Source: Nitrospirota bacterium (GTDB taxonomy: Bacteria > Nitrospirota > Thermodesulfovibrionia > Thermodesulfovibrionales > UBA6898). Taken from it: a stretch of DNA of 42,672 bases. Every line of letters starts with the position of its first letter. The first letter of the stretch is position 1. Positions 16,960 to 30,699 of this stretch are shown one piece after another. The translations under genes were made by a program, and so were the position numbers. The DNA lies in contig JAJZPM010000031.1 of the NCBI GenBank assembly GCA_021811105.1, positions 1 to 42,672 on the forward strand, given 5' to 3'. A model generated the notes under the pieces. That model saw only the letters and a list, made by a program, of their open reading frames with translations. It ran no database searches and had not been told where the DNA came from.

Positions 16960-17306
<347 letters not shown>

Positions 17307-17334
17307 CTTTTCTTTATTTTACAAGGGGTTAGAT

Positions 17335-17832
17335 TTACGACTGAGACGTTTTTTGGTTTCCATCTCGTTTCGCATTGAGGTCTACCACCTGCCCTCTCCG
17401 GTTGACCAATTCCTCAAGTCTCCGGGGTGTGGCGTGGTAGTATTTCTGGGTCGTGCGGGGATCGCTGTGTCCCATGAGGAGCTGGGCGTCGAACACGTTG
17501 GCTCCTGGGGTCTGGGCGATCTGAGTGCAGAATGAATGACGGGATGCTTCGTAGTATGTCACCGGGATGCCGCTGTATTGCTTCCAGGCATTATTAAGAA
17601 CCTTCGGCCTGTAATACCCTCCCGTAGTAGCATTGATGAACAGGGGCGCACCGGGCAGCTTGTCCTGCACGTTCTTTGACACGATCTCCCTGGCTCTAGT
17701 GGATAGCGGGATGTACCTCGCCGTGTTCGTCTTTGTGGTTTCCTTAAGGAACGGCCCGCTCCAGGTCCTTTGAATGCACGATCCCTGTGACACCCATCTC
17801 CCTGAAGGTTGCGTATAAGCTTGTTGCGGCAT
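17335..17832 (-). pseudogene. int: Tyrosine recombinase, C-terminal fragment
   Basis: The integrase homology begins at about codon 27 (near 17755) with KETTKTNTARYIPLS, the catalytic-lysine hairpin. It continues through YEASRHSFCTQIA (Arg of the HxxR box, with Glu in the usual His position), LLMGHSDPRTT (second His) and KYYHA (Tyr nucleophile). The N-terminal arm-binding and core-binding domains and the first catalytic Arg are absent, so it should be inactive alone. The first 25 or so codons only re-read the helicase gene in another frame. It lies next to attL, the expected position for the element's integrase. Confidence 0.85.
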
Positions 17833-18805
17833 GCCTCATATCGACGAAGAAATCTCCAGTGCCCTTGAGGTTCTGCACATAGTCCAGGGCCACGATTCTA
17901 ACACCGTCCTGGAGTTTATGCTTTTTGATCTTCAGGCGCATCTCCTCTGGCGTCCAGATATCGTCGTAAATTATCGGGTCCCACATCTCCAGCAGATCCG
18001 TCGCTTCACCTACCTCGGCCTCGCGATCGATAAACCTCCCGGTGAGTAGGAGCCTCTGTGGGACATCCGCCAGGTTGGCGATGAGCTTCATCATCTTTTC
18101 CTCGCGGGAATCCTCCGTCGAAAATATGAGCGGCCTCTCACCTTTGCGCATAAATGAAGCCATAAGTTGCGCGAGGAAGGTTGATTTACCCGCACTCGTG
18201 TACCCACAGATTAGCCACATATGCCCCGGAAATGCTCCAGGCACCGGGTCTGATATGGCCGAGGGAGCTGGCACAAATGTCTGCTTGCCGCTCTTGGCGA
18301 GTGCCCACTGCTCATTGAGAGACTGGATGATATCAGTGGCCTTCGGAGATTTCTTCCCCTTGACGGTCTCGGCCAGCCCAATAACCCCATGCTCCAGCTC
18401 CAGCAGTAGGGGCTGCACCTCCCCGGAGTAAGACTTCTCGTGCATCTCAGCGGTAAACCTACTGATGCTCCTGATGGTAGCCTTGTCCTTGACGATCTTC
18501 GCATGGTGTTTGATGTTGGCCGCCGAGGGCGTATTAATAGCGAGGGAGGCAAGGTATTGGTTGCCACCCACAGCCCCAAGCTCGCCCATGCTCGCAAGCC
18601 GTTCAGACACGGCTATAATGTCGGCCTTCCCCTCAAGCTGATAGACATCGAGCAGGGCGTTGAATATTTTCCTATGGGTCTCCTTGTAGAAATCCTGAGC
18701 ACTGAGCGTGTCGGATACATCCAGTAAGCAGTCAGGCTCCAGGATGATCGACCCCAAAACAGACTGCTCGGCCTCGATGTTGTGCGGTGGAATTTTATTA
18801 AGCAT
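17744..18805 (-). pseudogene. DnaB-like replicative helicase, C-terminally truncated
   Basis: 353 codons against roughly 440-470 in full-length DnaB. The N-terminal domain is recognisable (PPHNIEAEQSVLGSIILEPD). Walker A is ICGYTSAGKST and Walker B VRIVALDYVQN. The DnaB reading runs to about GVTGIVHSK, then the last residues come from integrase DNA read out of frame. The missing part includes the later RecA-core motifs and arginine finger, so ring activity is improbable. It may still make a protein that binds initiator or host helicase. GAAAGGAAAG lies upstream of the ATG. Confidence 0.8.
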
Positions 18806-18826: not shown

Positions 18827-19378
18827 TTATTGGATGGTGATCCCACTGAGGGTTGCTGCGCCACCCTCCACCGTAAGGCTTCCATCGATGATTGTTGTTC
18901 CGGGTCTGTCACTAAACCCACATGAATATCCGCCCTCCATGGTCACAGCGATAGCTCTGTTCATCGCAACCCTCTCCGGGAAAATTTTTGCGAGAACTCT
19001 TATAACGTCACCTTCTTTTGCTGTATCGTATGCTGCCTGTATGGAACCCCAATATAGGGCAGCGATACTTACTAACTGCGTAGAGCACAACGAAAGAGTG
19101 GTGGCACTAGCCTCCGGAGACGGGGCGCTTTCATTGCCGGATGCATCATATGCCGTAATAACGAAATAATACGTAGTTTCTGGCTGCAGTCCCGTCACGA
19201 GGAAGGCAGTCGTATTACCGGCATCAATGACGTTAGGGTAAACACCGGTGGTTGTCCCGTAATGGATTTTATAACCAGCGACGTTTATAGCTTCCCATTT
19301 TAGCGCGGCGTCCTGCGCGAAAAGGAATGATGGGAACAGGACTATAACCCAAATAACAAAGAGGTGCTTAATTTTCAT
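18827..19378 (-). CDS. Secreted fibronectin type III protein
   Basis: 183 residues. A signal peptide (about 1-21, core LFVIWVIVLFPSFLFA) is followed by a fibronectin type III domain (about 24-95: GLQPETTYYFVITAYDASGN). The C-terminal part (GSIQAAYDTAKEGDVIRVLA, TIIDGSLTVEGGAATLSGI) looks like the first turns of a beta-helix that ends early. It is coupled to the replication gene by TAATG. Export signals are unusual inside an early phage operon, so it may be host-derived cargo acting on the cell surface, possibly truncated from a longer beta-helix protein. Confidence 0.7.
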   Translation of the reverse strand: MKIKHLFVIWVIVLFPSFLFAQDAALKWEAINVAGYKIHYGTTTGVYPNVIDAGNTTAFLVTGLQPETTYYFVITAYDASGNESAPSPEASATTLSLCSTQLVSIAALYWGSIQAAYDTAKEGDVIRVLAKIFPERVAMNRAIAVTMEGGYSCGFSDRPGTTIIDGSLTVEGGAATLSGITIQ

Positions 19379-20658
19379 TACTTGCCCCCTCCCGGTTTGT
19401 GTGGAATTATTCTCAACTCGCGGCCAGCAGCATCGTAATGCCTTTCACTTTTGACGGGGGTTGTTCCGGTAGCGCTACGGACGACCTTCTCCATCCTGGC
19501 CCGCAACACATCCCACTTATCCCTCAGCTTTTTGCCCGAGAGAATATTCGGCCCCCAGAAGTCGTCCTCGGCAGCAAAGCGCATAACCCTGGCAATAACC
19601 TGCGGTTCCTGTTTGTCGATGCGGACGAGTTTGTCCATGTCTCCTGCCCACCCTTGTATCTTTTTCTCAATCCTTGCTTCTGTTAAATGCCACAGTCTGT
19701 CACTACATCCGTTTAGGAGGATTAGGGAGTAAAGCCTTCCCGCTAAACGGTAAGCTACGTCATCGCGTTGAAAACGCGTGACAAGAGAATTATCTTTAGA
19801 TAATTCTTCTTCTTCTACTTCTTCTTCTACTTCTACTTCCTGATAACATTCCAATAACGTGTTATTTAACGTCGGATAACTGTTATTTAACGTGTTATTT
19901 AACGTTAAATAACAAAGATCCCCGAGGGATAGCAGGGGTTTGAGGTTGAGCGCAGCATCAAAAACCATCACCGAAACGCCATCTTTTTCACACGAGCCAA
20001 GGTCAAAACTCACGGTAGTGCCATGCCCAATGAGAATTTTTCGACAATCACCTATGGCCCTCCCATAAGAATTAATCTGGTCAACCGTCCTTTGGGATAA
20101 CCGCCCCCTCTTGAGCTCAATAATAATTGGACCGCTGGCAGTATCACACCTTATGTCGATATAACTATTTCCTACCCTGACCTGGCGAGATACCGAAAGC
20201 ACCTTTTCGTTATACAGGGACGCCTCCGGCATAGAGAGGATGTTCGCTATGGCGTCCTCAAGATCAGACTCGGAGCACGCCAAAATGGCGGGCACTGGAG
20301 ATTTGAGATGAGACGGGAGATTGTCAATGCCGAGCTTTGCCTTATCGAGAGTTTGGTGCTCCGACAGAAAATTTATTGAGTGTATCCATCTCCGACCATC
20401 ATGTAGGAACCACTTAACACTTGTCTTGTCGTTGATCTCCTGGAGTAGGCCGGGCATGTTCTCGTAGGTCAGATAGGGGACGCGAGGACAAATCTCGTCT
20501 TTAATATACCCCACCCCACCATTCATCTTCCCGTATGAGTTGTAATGGGGTATCAACATACAGAATAAAACAGCAGCCTCCGGGCAAAGCGAGGCAAACC
20601 CCTCAGAATTCGATATATCTCTGTTAATCATGCGCCCCCTTGTTTTGTGTTTGTTCAT
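19378..20658 (-). CDS. Phage replication initiator with NucS-like nuclease domain
   Basis: 426 residues. The N-terminal part (about 10-105, MINRDISNSEGFASLCPEAA) resembles winged-helix phage replisome organisers. Residues about 128-235 form a PD-(D/E)XK nuclease domain of NucS/DUF91 type: ESDLEDAI, VGNSYIDIRCD (D168), IIIELKRGRLSQRTVDQI (E181, K183, Q194). A low-complexity linker (TLNNTLNNSYPTLNNTLL, then EVEVEEEVEEEE) carries the putative origin in its DNA. The C-terminus (DDFWGPNILSGKKLRDKWDVL) is typical of phage initiators that load helicase. ATG 20658 directly follows the previous stop; ATG 20631 also has a good site (AAGGGGG). Confidence 0.75.
   Translation of the reverse strand: MNKHKTRGRMINRDISNSEGFASLCPEAAVLFCMLIPHYNSYGKMNGGVGYIKDEICPRVPYLTYENMPGLLQEINDKTSVKWFLHDGRRWIHSINFLSEHQTLDKAKLGIDNLPSHLKSPVPAILACSESDLEDAIANILSMPEASLYNEKVLSVSRQVRVGNSYIDIRCDTASGPIIIELKRGRLSQRTVDQINSYGRAIGDCRKILIGHGTTVSFDLGSCEKDGVSVMVFDAALNLKPLLSLGDLCYLTLNNTLNNSYPTLNNTLLECYQEVEVEEEVEEEELSKDNSLVTRFQRDDVAYRLAGRLYSLILLNGCSDRLWHLTEARIEKKIQGWAGDMDKLVRIDKQEPQVIARVMRFAAEDDFWGPNILSGKKLRDKWDVLRARMEKVVRSATGTTPVKSERHYDAAGRELRIIPHKPGGGK
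19787..19913. other. Putative replication origin inside the initiator gene
   Basis: Three exact copies of GTTATTTAACGT (19861-19872, 19882-19893, 19894-19905) and one inverted copy (19902-19913); the last two form the palindrome GTTATTTAACGTTAAATAAC. Beside them lies a strongly strand-biased CTT/TTC-rich tract (about 19803-19840), then the perfect hairpin GAATTATCTTTAGATAATTC (19787-19806). Iterons within the initiator gene next to an asymmetric melting region is the arrangement of lambdoid origins. The iteron-binding protein is presumably the encoded initiator. Confidence 0.65.
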
Positions 20659-21124: not shown

Positions 21125-22360
21125 TTACTCAGACACCTCATCTTTTTCGGGTGTACCGTAGATCTCCTCCTCGGTGGCCTTGACCTTAGCTGCCTTTTTG
21201 AAGCCGAACCGCTGAGAAATCTTTCCACCACCGCAGGCTAACCGCAGCATGTTAAAGTTCTCCTTGAGGTCGTCATTGAGGTTCTCGACTGCTTTGAGGG
21301 CCTTCTCTTTATCTGCGCTGAGATATTTGTTTAAATCCAACCCGTTATCAAGGCAGAATTGAACCAATTCTTTAACACCCACACCGAGGGACATGGTGGT
21401 ATTGGTGCCGTATGATCCTAGGCCGATATCCAGAGGCTCTCTCTCCTTCAAAAACATCTTGAGGCGGTCTTCTATCGTCTTGGTGTCTCTTTTGAGGCAC
21501 TGCGCCTTCTGAGCGAGCCTGAAGGCCACTTCCTCGTCCTGGATGACCCTTGGGATCGCGAGTGACGAGTCATTCAGTGGGCAGGGGTAATTACAGAGTG
21601 AGCACGTCGTCCCCTGATGTGCCGGCCAGTCAGCGGGGTCCTCGGCGTTCAGTGAGTTCACCTTCTCCCAGAAAGTCTTGAGCATCTTCGGCACATCCAC
21701 GACCGAGCCACGGTCGTATTCGATCTCGACCTTGGCGTTCTCGTACCGAATGAAGTCCCAGACAAAGATTACCTTCTGGATGAATGGGTTCTTCTCCATG
21801 ATCGCCCAGGCGTACTGCTTGCCCTGGCCCTTACGCTCCAACTCGGATTGTGATGTGACCGTCCGGGCGCTCTTGTAGTCGGTAGCCTTCCAGATACTAT
21901 CCGTCACCATGTCTACTCGGTCGATTCTCTGGTGGACGAAGATGCCATTCTCGGAACACCACCTATCCTCATCCTCATAGGAATGGAGATTGGGAAACTC
22001 CACGGCTGAGAAGTTCTGGTTGAAGGCGATGCCGACCTCTGTCTTCCAGATCTTATCCGGATCGATCTTGAATCGCTCGCCGAATCCTTTAACAACCCCG
22101 TACAGGCTGTTATAGAACGACTCCGGCAGGGCTGTCTGGGCCTTCCACAGCCCAGAGAAAACCATCTCCAGGAGCTCGGCATCCTGCCCGAGCTTGTTCT
22201 TGACGAGCTGGTCCGTATAGACCTGCGCTACAAGATGAAGAAACGTCCCCTCCTCCAGGTATGAGTTCTTCTCATAGGGCGTCCGCAGGATATACTTCTC
22301 ACGGAAATAGAAGGGACATTCAAATGCGCTTAGTTTAGAATTACTTATTGGTATCATCAA
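21125..22360 (-). CDS. Cas4/RecB-like PD-(D/E)XK exonuclease with Fe-S cysteines
   Basis: 411 residues. The nuclease elements are in order: GTFLHLVAQ (H42), KTEVG (E108), RIDRVDMV (D147), ATDYKSAR (D161, K163) and KQYAWAIM (Q182). Four cysteines, C15 near the N-terminus and C253, C256, C260 in CSLCNYPCP, match the split iron-sulfur staple of Cas4 and AddB nucleases. The C-terminal 150 residues are family-specific. RecT lies two genes upstream, so this enzyme probably resects DNA ends to provide single strands for annealing, taking the place of RecE or lambda Exo. ATG 22360 has GGAGGT upstream. Confidence 0.85.
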   Translation of the reverse strand: MMIPISNSKLSAFECPFYFREKYILRTPYEKNSYLEEGTFLHLVAQVYTDQLVKNKLGQDAELLEMVFSGLWKAQTALPESFYNSLYGVVKGFGERFKIDPDKIWKTEVGIAFNQNFSAVEFPNLHSYEDEDRWCSENGIFVHQRIDRVDMVTDSIWKATDYKSARTVTSQSELERKGQGKQYAWAIMEKNPFIQKVIFVWDFIRYENAKVEIEYDRGSVVDVPKMLKTFWEKVNSLNAEDPADWPAHQGTTCSLCNYPCPLNDSSLAIPRVIQDEEVAFRLAQKAQCLKRDTKTIEDRLKMFLKEREPLDIGLGSYGTNTTMSLGVGVKELVQFCLDNGLDLNKYLSADKEKALKAVENLNDDLKENFNMLRLACGGGKISQRFGFKKAAKVKATEEEIYGTPEKDEVSE

Positions 22361-22562: not shown

Positions 22563-23570
22563 TTATGCCTTACCCTGCTGCTTCCTTGAGAGCAGTACGC
22601 TAAGGGAATTCCTATACTCGGCCACCAAGGCGATATAGTCCTCGTCACTTTTTGCCCTGGCCCTTCTCTGACCTAACTCCATATTTTTCGCCGCGTCATT
22701 GATGTCGAGGATGTCACACATGGCGTCAATGTCTTCCTTGAGATCTGCGGGGATGTTATAATCCACAGGCTCCACGGGAACTTCGATGAAGTCACCGTCC
22801 TTGCCGAGGTCGAGCCCTTCGTGCTCGTTGAGCACCTGCACCGCCTTCGCCACGCGCTCGTTCACGGGGAGGGTCTTGACGTGGTACTTGATCGCCGTCT
22901 TCCTCATCTGCTCGTCCGGCCAGGTGTGCCATGGCATCTTCTTATTGTCCTTCCCCTTCGAGGACTGAAACACCTTCCAGAGCTTCCACTTCGGCAGGAT
23001 GATGAAATCTACTGTGCCATCATGGAGCACCGACTTGGAATAGGCACAAACCACATGGTCCCAGATCTTGATCGGTTCCTTGATGAATTTGTCCATATCC
23101 ACCGGAGGATTGAGACACATCCTGTACCTGATGCGCGAGTCACTCCCCTGCTCATAATCAAACTCGTCCCAGTCATAAACAACCTGGGCCTCGATCGTCT
23201 TCACCTGCCCGGCGTCCATGCAGATATTCACAAGTCCCCGATAGGAAAAGTCGAGACAACACTTCCCATCCCTCGGGACAAGATATGCCTGCTGCATAAC
23301 CGGATTGAGCGTTGCTCCTGTCAGTGCTACGTTCACCATCGCATTTTTGATGCTCTCCGGGTCGGACTTGCGGAGAGCCTCTCCCGTGGCATCGTTCCTC
23401 CTGAGCGCCTGTAGAGCATAGACGACCTCCCGGTTCCATTTCCCGTCGTCGTTGCCGCACGCCCTCACAAAGGCAGCCTTTGCGGCCATCGCCTGCAATT
23501 CGTAAATCGGTACGTTCTTTTTCTCCTGTGTTGCCGGGACACTGGCGCCCGGAGCTGCTGTTGTTGCCAT
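22563..23570 (-). CDS. recT: RecT-family single-strand annealing protein
   Basis: 335 residues. The RecT signature is clear: LTGATLNPVMQQAYLVPRDG, CCLDFSYRGLVNICMDAG and PDEQMRKTAIKYHVKTLP. RecT coats single strands and anneals homologous DNA for phage recombination and repair. It is longer than E. coli RecT (269) because of a C-terminal extension with an acidic stretch (about 255-335). GAGGAG before ATG 23570 overlaps the end of the AP2 gene. It is grouped with the Cas4-like nuclease and the SbcC-like ATPase. Confidence 0.93.
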   Translation of the reverse strand: MATTAAPGASVPATQEKKNVPIYELQAMAAKAAFVRACGNDDGKWNREVVYALQALRRNDATGEALRKSDPESIKNAMVNVALTGATLNPVMQQAYLVPRDGKCCLDFSYRGLVNICMDAGQVKTIEAQVVYDWDEFDYEQGSDSRIRYRMCLNPPVDMDKFIKEPIKIWDHVVCAYSKSVLHDGTVDFIILPKWKLWKVFQSSKGKDNKKMPWHTWPDEQMRKTAIKYHVKTLPVNERVAKAVQVLNEHEGLDLGKDGDFIEVPVEPVDYNIPADLKEDIDAMCDILDINDAAKNMELGQRRARAKSDEDYIALVAEYRNSLSVLLSRKQQGKA

Positions 23571-23984: not shown

Positions 23985-24962
23985 CTAAAAGATGCGGTCG
24001 ATAATCGAGATCAGATATGGCATCTCGATCTTGAAGTCCGGGTCCTCGATCATGCGCTCCTTCAGGTTCTCGATCACCTGATAGAAATACGCGCAGTCTA
24101 CGCCGATGAGCTGATCGTCGAGGACATTGATATCTTTCAGGTTGAGTTCGCTCACCTGGAAACACATCTTGAGGTACTGCCCTGCATTGATATGCCATCC
24201 GCGCTTCAGGAACTTCCTCGTGCGAATGACCGACGCGATAGGATAGAGCGACCCAACATAGGAGAGAGTCTTCGAGAGGATCGCTTCCAGCGCCGGCTGG
24301 TTAAGGTAGAGCCTTTGGTCTTCGGAGAGCCAGTAGTTCGTGCAATGCACAAAATCGTAGTTTTTATGGATCTCCTTAGGGTTGCCATAGAACCGAATAA
24401 CAAGCTGGACCCCGTTGGAGAGCGTGATCGCGTTGGAGGTCATGAAGATGACGCGGTAAGGCTCCTTCTTGCCATCCCCCTCTAGCTCCCCTGCGGGGAT
24501 GTCGTCCGCATCCGAGACCATACTTTCAACCGGGGCTGTTACGCCCTCAACAAACTCCTCACCCTCCTCCGAGGGGCGGCTCTCGAAGAACTGATATTCG
24601 CCATCGGTTTTATCCCCGGCGAGGCCCTGCGATTTAACAATGACGCGAACGCGGCCCGTATCCTCCTCCACTTCGACCCGTGGACGGATGCGGGCTCCCG
24701 TGCCTGGCCTCTTCCCTGCCCCTTCCGGGTGTGCATCGTTATACTTCTTCACAAAATACTCGGCGACGCGCCTGCATGTCTCCTGATCGGTGAAATAGTA
24801 GTCGTAATCGTTAACCTTCTCGTTGAGAAGGAGAGACACGATTGACCCTCCCGTTATCATCGAGTTCTTGTCAATGAGCTTGCGGATCTCCTCGTCGTCG
24901 ATCGACTTTAGGAAGTCTTTATGTTTGCGGATGAGAAGTTTGGTAGCTGTTTTTTTATTCAT
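23985..24962 (-). CDS. Nucleotidyltransferase-fold phage protein
   Basis: 325 residues. MITGGSIVSLLLNEKVNDYD with YYFTD fits the polymerase-beta-type nucleotidyltransferase core: a Gly-Gly-Ser loop and a DxD metal pair. The usual third acidic strand would lie near RVIFMTSNAITL or LVIRFYG. An inserted region (about 75-165) is long and acidic. The C-terminal half (KNYDFVHCTNYW, RTRKFLKRGWHINAGQYLKM) recalls tRNA-nucleotidyltransferase-like phage proteins of unknown function. The start overlaps the end of the upstream zinc-finger gene by eight bases. It could modify nucleotides, RNA or protein. No HEPN partner is adjacent, which argues against an MNT-HEPN toxin pair. Confidence 0.6.
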   Translation of the reverse strand: MNKKTATKLLIRKHKDFLKSIDDEEIRKLIDKNSMITGGSIVSLLLNEKVNDYDYYFTDQETCRRVAEYFVKKYNDAHPEGAGKRPGTGARIRPRVEVEEDTGRVRVIVKSQGLAGDKTDGEYQFFESRPSEEGEEFVEGVTAPVESMVSDADDIPAGELEGDGKKEPYRVIFMTSNAITLSNGVQLVIRFYGNPKEIHKNYDFVHCTNYWLSEDQRLYLNQPALEAILSKTLSYVGSLYPIASVIRTRKFLKRGWHINAGQYLKMCFQVSELNLKDINVLDDQLIGVDCAYFYQVIENLKERMIEDPDFKIEMPYLISIIDRIF

Positions 24963-25155
24963 GGTCCACCTCCCCTATGGCTCTTATTTCATCTGTCAGC
25001 TCATCGATTTGATCTTGTAATTCGCGGGCTCGATCAGCCCTATGGCCCAACTCCTCATTAAGATCGCGGATCTCTCCGAGGAGCAGGCAGGCTGGACAGT
25101 CCCGGCCATCGTAGCAAATTTCTTCGTGCCCATTAGAGCAAAGGTCCATGCTCAT
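24955..25155 (-). CDS. Small zinc-finger coiled-coil protein, 66 aa
   Basis: ATG 25155 has GAGGAGG six bases upstream and overlaps the stop of the thymidylate-synthase-like gene (ATGA). DLCSNGHEEICYDGRDCPAC supplies Cys and His suited to one zinc site. The rest is a heptad-like helix (EIRDLNEELGHRADRARELQ). Similar short proteins occur in phage early operons; function unknown. Confidence 0.6.
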   Translation of the reverse strand: MSMDLCSNGHEEICYDGRDCPACLLLGEIRDLNEELGHRADRARELQDQIDELTDEIRAIGEVDHE

Positions 25156-25682
25156 GATTCCCTCCTCATCGTCCGTATCCGGGCGATCTCTTCCTGGTAG
25201 CCGTAGATATGCGCCCCCGCTGAGTATGCGTACATCGGTCCGTTCTTCAGGCCGGTCTCCCTGGCGACATACTGCTTGAGAAGTTCGATGCCGCCGAGGT
25301 TTGTCGGAAAACCCGCCCAGAGGTCCCACGAGCGGAAATGGCAGGTGACGGTCAGCGCCAGGCCGTCGCCCGCGGGAATGGCCTTGAAGTCGAGGAGGCG
25401 GAGACAGGGCAGCTCGGGGTCCATGAGATAATTTACGAAACAGTCTTCGACTGACTCCTTTGTACAGGGCACCGGGAGATTGAGATGGGGAGGAATAACA
25501 GGCACCATATCCTGATCCGGATATTTAATGTAGACCCCGATGCCCGGATACTGGAGGCGATACTGCTCCTTTTCAAAGGAGCCCTTCTGGATCTTCTGCG
25601 TGTAAGAATTATCGAAGATATTCCAGAGGAGTTGAAACCATGCGTCCGCGATCGTGTTCGCTTCGAGGAAGAATGGCTTCAT
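25152..25682 (-). CDS. Half-length thymidylate-synthase-like protein
   Basis: 176 residues. The C-terminal half matches thymidylate synthase in order and spacing: FRSWD (R117, S118, D120) for RSxD, FPTN (N128) eight residues later, and AHIYG (H158, Y160) 30 residues after that, as in D169/N177/H207/Y209 of E. coli ThyA. LPC (C93) is a candidate for the catalytic cysteine, four residues further from RSxD than usual. The N-terminus is about 50 residues shorter than in ThyA. It may be a pyrimidine-modifying enzyme or a non-catalytic relative. It is coupled by ATGA to both neighbours. Confidence 0.65.
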   Translation of the reverse strand: MKPFFLEANTIADAWFQLLWNIFDNSYTQKIQKGSFEKEQYRLQYPGIGVYIKYPDQDMVPVIPPHLNLPVPCTKESVEDCFVNYLMDPELPCLRLLDFKAIPAGDGLALTVTCHFRSWDLWAGFPTNLGGIELLKQYVARETGLKNGPMYAYSAGAHIYGYQEEIARIRTMRRES

Positions 25683-27301
25683 GCCGCCACCTCCCCCTTT
25701 GGAGCCTTCAGGGCCTCAATGAATGCCTCAAGTTCCGTGGGGTCTGTCGGTGCCTGCTGCACCGCGCCGTCAACAACCACGAAAGCACCAGGAGGGATGT
25801 TGTCGCCATGCTGAACAACGGTGAGGAGGTACTGCCAGTCCTCGGGGTCCTCCATGACCTGCCTGCCGAATTCTTCGAGTGTTGAATCATCAAGGGACTC
25901 GGCCCGGTCAAGAAGAATCGTCTTCAGGGCCTTGTCTTTATTCAGCGCCTTTGTGATTGTTATGGCGAAGGCAACTTTCTCCGATGTGCTCAGCCTGTCG
26001 AGCGGAACATCCCCGACAAAGATTTTGTCGCCCACGATCTTGAGGTTTGGAATGGGCATATTCGCCGCCTTCGCCAGAACATCCGGCAATTCGTTTCTGA
26101 GTTTGCTGAGGATGTCGGTGAGTTTCTGCGTCTCGACCTTCTTTGTCTCGTAATCAGCCTCTTTCTTTCCGGCGTCGAGATGGTCGTTGTAAAGCGCTAC
26201 CCCTGCCGCATCCGCTTCAAGCTCGCCCTGAAGTGCGAGGAGTTCTTCTTCGAGGGGCTCAATAGCAGGAACATCCTCGATCTTCGGGAGTGCCGCCAGG
26301 GTGCCTTTCTCATTTTCGAGAGCCAGAAGATAAGCCTCGCGTTCGCGTTGGATATCTGTAGCGGCGGCGATAAGTCCCTCAACCGCGTATTGTGATGACC
26401 GAAGGTCACTAAGCTTCTCCTCCGTCTCTGCAATCTGCATCGCAAGACTGGAGGCTTTTTTATTGTTCTCTTTGATAAAGCTCGCCATGTCCGCATGTTC
26501 CGGAACGGCTAACCACTCCTCGGCCCCCTTGATCTTCCTCTCGGTCTTGTCTCTGAGGGCCTGCGTGCCCTTGGCTTGCCGGTCTGATGTTTTAGCCTCG
26601 GTGATCTTGTGCTCAACAGCCTTGATCTTCTCGTGGATCTCTCCAGACCGATCGCCACGGAATGAGAGCGGGTCAAAATTCTTGGCCTTCTCCCTGGCAG
26701 CTTCGGCGAGGGCCTTCTTCTGTGCGGCCTCCTTGTTGATGTCGGCCCTCTCCAGATAGATAACCCCGTTCTTGGTATTGGTCAGGGTCTCAACAATCTC
26801 CATGCCATCCCTGCTATAATCGATGCCGCGCAGGAACTCCTCGGGGACGAAAGAAAGCATCTCCGGCGTGAGGATAGTCTTGAATAGATCCCGCATATAC
26901 TTCGCTCTCTCCTTCGGCTCAAGCGACAGGAAATGGAGGGGATCGAACCTGGAGCCCCCGGTCAGCTTACTAATGAACTGTTGCGGTGCCGCAACGGGCG
27001 ACATAACCGTCTCGTTTGTTGGTAGATGGGTGGGGACCTTCACAGAAAACCGCTCGGACTTTTGTGTCCTGATGCGGTTGGCCTCGATGCCTTCGAGGTC
27101 GATAAGTATCTCGGCCTTGTCCGCGCCCTTGCGTATCATTGAAGGGTCGATACCCTCGACAAGGCCATCCTGAACCGCGTCCAAGATAGTAGTCTTCCCC
27201 ATGCCGTTTTGTCCCGTGATAAAGCTCAAGCGGCTGTGGGGGTGAATGGTGACATCTTTCAGGATGCCGTAATTGGAGATTCGTAGTGAGGTTATTTTCA
27301 T
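25679..27301 (-). CDS. SbcC/RecF-like SMC-family ATPase
   Basis: 540 residues. Walker A GQNGMGKTT is at the N-terminus (about 30-38). A central coiled coil (about 175-400) is shorter than in SbcC. The signature LSTSEKVAF and the Walker B region LKTILLDRAESLDD are near the C-terminus. In Walker B the residue after the Asp is Arg, and the glutamate comes two positions later, so hydrolysis geometry may differ. No zinc-hook CxxC is visible. Phage members of this group usually act with a nuclease in recombination or end processing; no SbcD-type phosphoesterase is adjacent, but RecT and the Cas4-like nuclease are. Confidence 0.82.
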   Translation of the reverse strand: MKITSLRISNYGILKDVTIHPHSRLSFITGQNGMGKTTILDAVQDGLVEGIDPSMIRKGADKAEILIDLEGIEANRIRTQKSERFSVKVPTHLPTNETVMSPVAAPQQFISKLTGGSRFDPLHFLSLEPKERAKYMRDLFKTILTPEMLSFVPEEFLRGIDYSRDGMEIVETLTNTKNGVIYLERADINKEAAQKKALAEAAREKAKNFDPLSFRGDRSGEIHEKIKAVEHKITEAKTSDRQAKGTQALRDKTERKIKGAEEWLAVPEHADMASFIKENNKKASSLAMQIAETEEKLSDLRSSQYAVEGLIAAATDIQREREAYLLALENEKGTLAALPKIEDVPAIEPLEEELLALQGELEADAAGVALYNDHLDAGKKEADYETKKVETQKLTDILSKLRNELPDVLAKAANMPIPNLKIVGDKIFVGDVPLDRLSTSEKVAFAITITKALNKDKALKTILLDRAESLDDSTLEEFGRQVMEDPEDWQYLLTVVQHGDNIPPGAFVVVDGAVQQAPTDPTELEAFIEALKAPKGEVAA

Positions 27302-28918: not shown

Positions 28919-28958
28919 TCAATGGCATCTTAGTGATTATGCTTCAATGCCATTGAAG
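28919..28958. promoter_or_regulatory. Putative repressor operators
   Basis: TCAATGGCAT (28919-28928) and its exact inverted copy ATGCCATTGA (28947-28956) flank 18 bases. The right half is itself a palindrome, CTTCAATGCCATTGAAG (28942-28958). They lie between the divergent operons, where an XRE repressor would be expected to bind. Confidence 0.55.
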
Positions 28959-29023: not shown

Positions 29024-29518
29024 ATGACAGAGGTAATCAAGCTCGGCAAGAAGGTACGGATGAGAGACCAAGCCCTAACAAAGGCCATCGCAAAGAGGCT
29101 CACCCAGCTCATCGGTGAGGACACACTAGAACCAATCGCAAGGGAGCTTGATATTAAGCACAACACGCTCTGGAGCTACACCCATGCGATATGTATGCCC
29201 AGCGTGGAGGTGCTCATCAAGATCGCCAAATACTTCGGGAAGACCCTAGATTGGCTTGTGCTCGGGGCGGCATCTGAGATCCCAAAGGATGACAGGGAGA
29301 GGGGCCTTCTCGCCAGAGTGCGCGAGGCCGAAGAATTGGGGGTTGACTTAAAACCCATAGAGGAGTATATAATGTTCCTCGTTGACAGAAAGAAGGGGGG
29401 CGCTTACAAGTTGAGCAACGACCAGGTATTGAGAGCCGCAGAGCCCAAACCGGAAAAATATGCCAGCGAAAGAAGGAGTGCAGGAAATGAGGGGGAAGAG
29501 CCTGTTGGTGGTCGATGA
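29024..29518 (+). CDS. XRE-type helix-turn-helix repressor
   Basis: 164 residues. The Cro/C1-type HTH covers about 25-75: DTLEPIARELDIKHNTLWSY then MPSVEVLIKIAKYFGKTLDW. The C-terminal part is charged and shows no LexA-type peptidase motif, so SOS-type self-cleavage is not expected. GGGGGAAGGG precedes the ATG. It is the likely immunity repressor, acting on the operators at 28919-28958. Its last 32 bases overlap the receiver-RadC gene, so the two are made together. Confidence 0.85.
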   Translation: MTEVIKLGKKVRMRDQALTKAIAKRLTQLIGEDTLEPIARELDIKHNTLWSYTHAICMPSVEVLIKIAKYFGKTLDWLVLGAASEIPKDDRERGLLARVREAEELGVDLKPIEEYIMFLVDRKKGGAYKLSNDQVLRAAEPKPEKYASERRSAGNEGEEPVGGR

Positions 29519-30266
29519 TGAGGAGTCATTCCTACAGCTTGTGGAATGGCATTATTCACTTCAAGGGGTCAAGGTAGAAAGGGCCTTGACGTTGGGAGAG
29601 GCAAGCGAGAAATTATATGTACGAACACCAGATGCTGTCCTTCTGGATTTGATGCTGCCGGATGGTAGCGGTATGGATTTTTTTGAGAAGAGGCTGCGGG
29701 GCAATACACCAACCGTCCTCATCTCGGGATTTGGTGAGGATTATACTGAAAGGGAATTTACAGATAAAGGAGGGTACGGCTTCTTGCAAAAGCCATCGGC
29801 CATGTCGGATATCGACCTGAAGATATCAGGAGCTATAAAATCACACAGGGAGCGGTTTTGCGTTAGGGCGGATATTGAAATCGTAGTTGAAACAACACCG
29901 GACAGGGTGGCAGTTAAAAACCCTAGCGATGTATTTGAGATGCTGCGCTTTATGGGGCAGCTCGACAGAGAAATGCTCTGCGTTGTCCATATGGATTCGC
30001 AGGGGATGTCCATCAAGACAGAGATGGTATCCCTCGGGACGCAAAGTTCTCTCTTGACGCACCAGCGGGAGATTTTCAAAAACGCGGTACGCAACGGGGC
30101 GGCCTCGATCATCCTGGCGCACAACCATCCATCAGGAAAACTCGAAGCATCAGAGCAAGACAAAGAGCTAACCCGGTCTGTTTTTCTATCCGGCGAGGTC
30201 CTTGGGATACATCTTCTCGATCACCTCGTCATTGGTGGTAACTCTTTTTTATCAATTCAACCGTAA
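29487..30266 (+). CDS. Receiver-RadC (JAMM) fusion protein
   Basis: 259 residues from ATG 29487 (GGAG upstream; a longer frame from 29460 is possible). Residues 1-120 are a complete response-regulator receiver: D10-D11, phospho-acceptor D54 (VLLDLMLPDGSG), S80 and K102. Residues about 140-259 are a RadC/UPF0758 MPN domain with an intact JAMM site: E179, H212 and H214 in AHNHPSG, S222 and D225. The usual RadC N-terminal helix-hairpin-helix part is replaced by the receiver. JAMM domains are zinc hydrolases in many proteins; the RadC reaction is unproven. The element has no kinase, so phosphate would come from a host kinase or small donors. Confidence 0.88.
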   Translation: MRGKSLLVVDDEESFLQLVEWHYSLQGVKVERALTLGEASEKLYVRTPDAVLLDLMLPDGSGMDFFEKRLRGNTPTVLISGFGEDYTEREFTDKGGYGFLQKPSAMSDIDLKISGAIKSHRERFCVRADIEIVVETTPDRVAVKNPSDVFEMLRFMGQLDREMLCVVHMDSQGMSIKTEMVSLGTQSSLLTHQREIFKNAVRNGAASIILAHNHPSGKLEASEQDKELTRSVFLSGEVLGIHLLDHLVIGGNSFLSIQP

Positions 30267-30276
30267 GGGGGATTCC

Positions 30277-30582
30277 ATGAAAAAGGTTGTTGTAATTGCA
30301 TTACTGTTCATGCTTGTTATGTCTGCTATCGCGCAGGCAGAGATGAAGACGGTGGTATGTTCCCAGTTTGATAGCCGTGGCGATCAAGCCTTCTGTTATG
30401 GGCTTAACAGAGTGACCGGAGCAGTAGATACATCGGAGTCACAATCGCTCGAAGTTTACCTGTTGGAGGGATGGAAGATCCTGTCAATGACGGATATTAC
30501 ATTTCTCGGGGAGGCCAGCAAGAAAATCCTCCTTCAGAGGGCTGGCTCCGAGGGCGCTAAGGCACGGACGCTCCCCCATTAA
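30277..30582 (+). CDS. Small secreted hypothetical protein
   Basis: 101 residues with a clear signal peptide (MKKVVVIALLFMLVMSAIAQ then AE). The mature part is about 80 residues with two Cys. AAGGGGG precedes ATG 30277, ten bases after the RadC-fusion gene. Mature region: VVCSQFDSRGDQAFCYGLNR, LLEGWKILSMTDITFLG. No family recognised. The last gene before attR is a usual place for lysogenic cargo. Confidence 0.65.
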   Translation: MKKVVVIALLFMLVMSAIAQAEMKTVVCSQFDSRGDQAFCYGLNRVTGAVDTSESQSLEVYLLEGWKILSMTDITFLGEASKKILLQRAGSEGAKARTLPH

Positions 30583-30639: not shown

Positions 30640-30669
30640 CCGGGTTCGATTCCCGGCGCCTCCACCAAT
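30640..30669. repeat. Attachment site attR
   Basis: Exact 30-bp copy of the ssrA 3' end (17277-17306): a T-arm, acceptor 3' strand and ACCA without the rest of a tRNA or tmRNA. Sequence to the right is presumably the original ssrA downstream region. Confidence 0.92.
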
Positions 30670-30699
30670 TTCTTTTCCTTAACGGCTGGCGATTCCCAA

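Follow-up and report, generated by a model that had tools for sequence, protein, structure and literature searches.

The DNA considered in this study (the window, 42,672 nucleotides from a draft Nitrospirota genome) holds a prophage remnant of 13.4 kb, integrated in a tmRNA gene. Its features are collected in Table 1. The leftward operon comprises an integrase fragment, a truncated DnaB-like helicase, an exonuclease, RecT, a thymidylate-synthase-like protein and an SbcC/RecF-like ATPase. The rightward operon begins with a repressor gene and continues with the subject of this study, a gene encoding a receiver domain fused to a RadC domain (the protein is called P0001), followed by a gene for a small putative exported protein and then by attR, so that the fusion comes second in the repressor operon, at the remnant's right end.

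Table 1 Features of the prophage remnant, in order along the window
Feature	Positions	Strand	Basis
tmRNA gene	16960-17304		
attL, 3' end of tmRNA gene	17277..17311	+	repeat
Integrase C-terminal fragment (tyrosine recombinase), only profile positions 59-170 of 172	17335..17832	-	profile match
DnaB-like helicase, C-terminally truncated, runs into integrase fragment	17744..18805	-	profile match
PD-(D/E)XK exonuclease	21125..22360	-	profile match
RecT-like annealing protein	22563..23570	-	profile match
Thymidylate-synthase-like protein, 176 aa, partial match (profile 145-219 of 266)	25152-25682	-	
SbcC/RecF-like AAA ATPase, phrog_1499	25679..27301	-	Pfam, phrog
Perfect 8-1-8 palindrome CTTCAATG-C-CATTGAAG between divergent operons, candidate repressor operator	28942..28958	+	
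XRE/HTH_3 repressor-like gene, 164 aa; 3' end overlaps fusion by 32 bases	29024..29518	+	HTH_3 2e-5; phrog transcriptional repressors
Shine-Dalgarno-like AAGGAG, 8 bases 5' of fusion ATG (29487)	29473..29478	+	sequence
Receiver-RadC fusion gene P0001, 259 aa	29487..30266	+	Pfam, structure models, fold search
Receiver domain, residues 7-111; D10, D11, D54 (phosphoacceptor), S80, K102	29505..29819	+	Pfam, residue check, model
RadC-type JAB domain, residues 144-257; E179, H212, H214, S222, D225	29916..30257	+	Pfam, residue check, 2qlc alignment
Small protein, signal-peptide-like N-terminus, third operon gene	30277..30582	+	sequence
attR, tmRNA 3'-end repeat, 94% identical over 35 bases, 13,363 bases from attL	30640..30674	+	repeat

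The element counts as a remnant: its integrase and DnaB genes are both incomplete, and among those of its genes that were scanned none for capsid or tail could be recognised. The truncations mean that it is probably unable to move on its own. The fusion was originally described as lying in a mobile element: the location stands, but what is left of that element is no longer intact. The two truncated frames beside attL (17335-18805, minus strand) look like the product of an internal deletion. Elsewhere in the element, a phrog_4400 protein (23985-24962, minus strand, 3e-67) aligns over its full length, at 34-45% identity, with proteins from phages of Vibrio, Sulfitobacter and Lysinibacillus, of which some are annotated as tRNA nucleotidyltransferase, and a 426-aa protein (19378-20658, minus strand) weakly matches the endonuclease NucS (3e-4) and the candidate defence family PDC-S11 (1e-3). 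The N-terminal half of the thymidylate-synthase-like protein matches nothing, and the AAA protein has no relative in the viral contigs scanned. The element had also been said to encode no kinase, and none was recognised among its genes scanned; the host genome, by contrast, has 59 HisKA matches.

A Pfam scan finds no S24 peptidase (self-cleavage) domain in the repressor. The palindrome upstream of it is likely to be its operator, and a partial second copy of the palindrome lies at 28919-28928. The repressor has one distant relative in viral contigs and no match among phage records. Another genome of the same order (G103:C11, L103/L104) encodes a relative with 31% identity over 115 aa; a small lipoprotein-like gene comes directly after it, and then an integrase gene. 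The third protein of the rightward operon bears a weak likeness to the product of that lipoprotein-like gene. There is no RadC or receiver gene in the 19 kb covered at the G103 repressor, and a repressor module that does without receiver-RadC speaks for the fusion being an accessory insertion.

Domains and predicted structure of the fusion protein

The fusion gene is one unbroken open frame of 259 codons. Pfam assigns the N-terminal part to Response_reg (E 4.1e-14, profile positions 2-108 of 111) and the C-terminal part to RadC (E 1.5e-33), both above the curated cut-offs, so neither match is due to chance. The original prediction had placed a receiver and a RadC JAMM domain in one chain, with five named residues in each, and all ten are present at their positions. 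It had also put the gene directly after the repressor gene and overlapping it, as is borne out by the overlap of 32 bases.

The domain boundaries are natural: a full receiver whose alpha-5 extends to about residue 124, a linker of about 20-30 residues and a full RadC domain. The two halves have similar GC3 (0.53 and 0.56). A split of the fusion by an internal start was ruled out, the sequence of the frame having no in-frame start at the receiver/RadC junction. Since the window also contains no N, and both domains are whole (the receiver through alpha-5) with no start at their junction, two genes are unlikely to have been joined in assembly.

Structure prediction was to sink the fusion if it gave no receiver fold, but AlphaFold and Foldseek both find that fold, and the RadC fold with it. 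With a receiver-rich alignment, AlphaFold predicts the receiver, alpha-5 included, at a pLDDT of about 94. With an alignment of receivers and RadC proteins, pLDDT is mostly 84-97 up to residue 100 and about 67-95 in RadC, and falls below 50 in region 106-138; pTM is 0.52, and the placement of the domains relative to each other is not predicted. Mixed alignments that misaligned receivers onto RadC were left out of folding. Foldseek matches in the PDB include RadC (2qlc, 9.5e-12) and many receivers, e.g., NtrC1 (1zy2, 2.4e-8), as well as DgcR and PorX, response regulators with enzymatic outputs.

The receiver is a classical PF00072 domain, matched over its whole length, with the D/D/D/S/K set and a predicted (beta-alpha)5 fold, and it scores best against NtrC-type and KdpE-type receivers. 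A cRec identity was rejected, since Pfam at E up to 0.001 lists only PF00072 and PF04002. The C-terminal half belongs to RadC (PF04002), by a significant match and the JAMM residues E, H, H, S and D. Pfam finds no UPF0758_N or HhH part, as chromosomal RadC has. This separates the protein from the chromosomal form and not from the RadC domain family, since many mobile RadC proteins also lack UPF0758_N. Nor does Pfam find a match to the HEXXH metalloproteases of PF06114, which would mark an ImmA-type protein.

Relatives and origin of the architecture

JAB-only RadC proteins share 35-42% identity with the RadC half. Such short forms are encoded by many viral contigs and by two other RadC genes of the host genome (L002 and L003), which also has one of the chromosomal HhH form. 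The original prediction supposed that the receiver had replaced a helix-hairpin-helix part, which need not be so, given that RadC proteins of mobile elements are commonly JAB-only already. For the same reason the receiver would most simply have been added to a short JAB-only RadC. The receiver was not freshly copied from one of the host's receivers, since its own closest relatives share about 30-36% identity with it at best. A single-sequence scan of genome contigs with the fusion brought up receivers only.

Searches of 27 genomes from the family, 230 from the class, a phylum sample of 396 and three other phyla (296, 255 and 266 genomes) brought up no second receiver-RadC fusion. With thresholds of 1e-24 to 1e-26 and limited candidates scored per genome, they are searches that a very divergent fusion could escape. 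Among 50,697 phage records and 72,556 plasmid records, no match covers 80% of the protein. RadC relatives are encoded by 566 viral contigs, the best 80 of which have no receiver frame, and among ten long viral RadC frames with N-terminal extensions, UPF0758_N occurs in three and a receiver in none. A Foldseek search of the BFVD viral structures returned RadC and receiver proteins separately, with no target well fitted over both domains, and a receiver-RadC protein is absent from the literature searched. The join looks real and very rare, and comes at present from one draft genome.

Possible functions

The complete receiver, the complete RadC JAB domain and the position of the gene at the attR end of the remnant are best read together as a response regulator of the prophage, with a RadC hydrolase for output that host kinases would gate and that would be expressed along with the repressor. 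I put the chances of this reading at even. It draws on the retention of all catalytic and phosphorylation residues, the two predicted folds, the 32-base operon overlap, the ribosome-binding site, the HisKA matches of the host and the solved structures of other response regulators that have an enzyme for output (DgcR and PorX); against it, no homologous fusion was found, hence there is no conservation of architecture to compare. I infer that phosphorylation gates the putative enzyme activity, in the following way. The fusion would be expressed together with the repressor in the lysogen, and D54 would receive its phosphate from a histidine kinase of the host or from a small phosphodonor. The alpha4-beta5-alpha5 face would then rearrange, as in other response regulators, and would open or dimerise the RadC domain, turning a Zn-dependent hydrolase on or off. 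Compared with action on the repressor, an accessory (moron-like) action on nucleic acid, a nucleotide or a host protein seems somewhat more probable. A review (PMC11981726) describes RadC as topologically like JAMM proteases and as having an enzymatic activity established for no member.

Action on the repressor is the substance of the first alternative, a possibility I entertain but hold to be on the unlikely side: RadC would serve as a protease or binding partner that clears away the overlapping XRE repressor once the receiver is phosphorylated, letting host two-component signals induce the prophage, much as in ImmA/ImmR of ICEBs1 but with a JAB enzyme for ImmA. The overlap of the genes for repressor and putative metalloenzyme fits such a scheme, as does the repressor's lack of a self-cleavage domain. 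So does the company that radC keeps in viruses. In the best 80 of 566 viral RadC loci, where XRE-type genes were found by an iterated profile, 6 of 10 strong matches lie within 1 kb of radC, compared with 1.4 expected from uniform placement (p about 0.001), a p-value that is too strong since the clustered loci are partly kin (the RadC proteins of L021, L022 and L026 are 52-68% identical). Pfam confirms the HTH of the strong matches near radC. Genes for XRE-type HTH proteins share the strand of radC and are no more than about 1 kb from it in six viral contigs (L021, L022, L026, L030, L076 and L095). There may thus be a general link between repressors and RadC across viral contigs. The absence of RadC near the G103 repressor speaks against the scheme, and another review (PMC5512222) argues that RadC-family JABs miss the groove that holds a peptide tail and are more likely nucleic-acid enzymes. 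With G103 on one side and clustering in partly related viral loci on the other, a link of the fusion to the repressor is possible but tenuous. In its fullest form, a temperate phage's lysogeny switch would be under host two-component control, the receiver, once phosphorylated by a host kinase, activating a RadC-type JAB enzyme to remove or inactivate the repressor encoded alongside, in a JAMM-based counterpart of ImmR/ImmA; this I think quite unlikely.

The fusion may instead have arisen by a chance joining of a receiver and a phage RadC, intact because the event is recent or the prophage recently dead, with no phospho-regulation at all. A single instance across all sets searched and a truncated prophage around it are what a neutral fusion would leave, and as the prophage is degraded, the gene itself may be a relic that is being lost. 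I nonetheless consider this explanation unlikely, set against the intactness of all ten functional residues of both domains and a receiver that has no close relative.

It is more doubtful that the protein is anti-phage cargo, a single-protein defence of the lysogen in which the receiver senses signals related to infection and RadC attacks nucleic acid. The fusion adjoins the repressor in a lysogeny operon, a frequent site of prophage defence genes. Part of the receiver (residues 4-63, 29496-29675) weakly matches one PADLOC profile of SduA (Shedu), at 5.8e-5, which suggests that some SduA proteins may carry a similar N-terminal receiver-like domain before their nuclease. No defence family, however, matches the whole protein, and a nuclease activity of RadC is only putative. 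Finally, that assembly of a draft genome in 93 contigs artificially joined a receiver gene to a RadC gene is very improbable, in view of the natural boundaries, unbroken frame, similar GC3, lack of N, ribosome-binding site and operon overlap.

RadC is among the commonest bacterial and mobile-element proteins without a settled function, and its wiring to a receiver provides a handle on it. The receiver could be switched by acetyl phosphate, BeF3 or D54 mutants, so that RadC activity could be sought by comparing the protein switched on with the protein switched off. Should the repressor be the partner, the fusion would give a prophage a new way to read host signalling, and a true JAMM-based counterpart of ImmR/ImmA would give a function to the RadC proteins of mobile elements.

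Comparison with known systems

The fusion shares its JAB domain and the motif HNHPSG...S..D with RadC/UPF0758 (PF04002), as represented by E. coli RadC and by 2qlc of Chlorobium tepidum, a structure to which its RadC half is about 40% identical. Chromosomal RadC has UPF0758_N/HhH in front, where this protein has a receiver. The JAB-only RadC proteins of phages and mobile elements are like it in having a short RadC domain within a mobile element, with 38-42% identity, but have no receiver in the best 80 of 566 viral loci.

CheB, DgcR and PorX likewise combine an N-terminal receiver with a C-terminal enzyme (in PorX a metalloenzyme), but their output domain is not RadC, and their partner kinases are known. 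In ImmR/ImmA of ICEBs1, as here, a repressor gene is followed by a gene for a putative metalloenzyme in a mobile element. ImmA, however, is a HEXXH (PF06114-type) protease with no receiver and no homology to the fusion.

RadC is joined to another domain, as it is here, in fusions to HhH, ArdC-N and a DinG-type helicase carried by mobile elements, and a receiver is not mentioned among such partners in the relevant passages of PMC5512222 and PMC11981726. Lastly, the cRec domains of jumbo phages also bring a receiver fold into a phage protein, but they are divergent and not tied to kinases (PMC7824862), whereas the receiver described here is of the PF00072 type and carries the usual D/D/D/S/K set.
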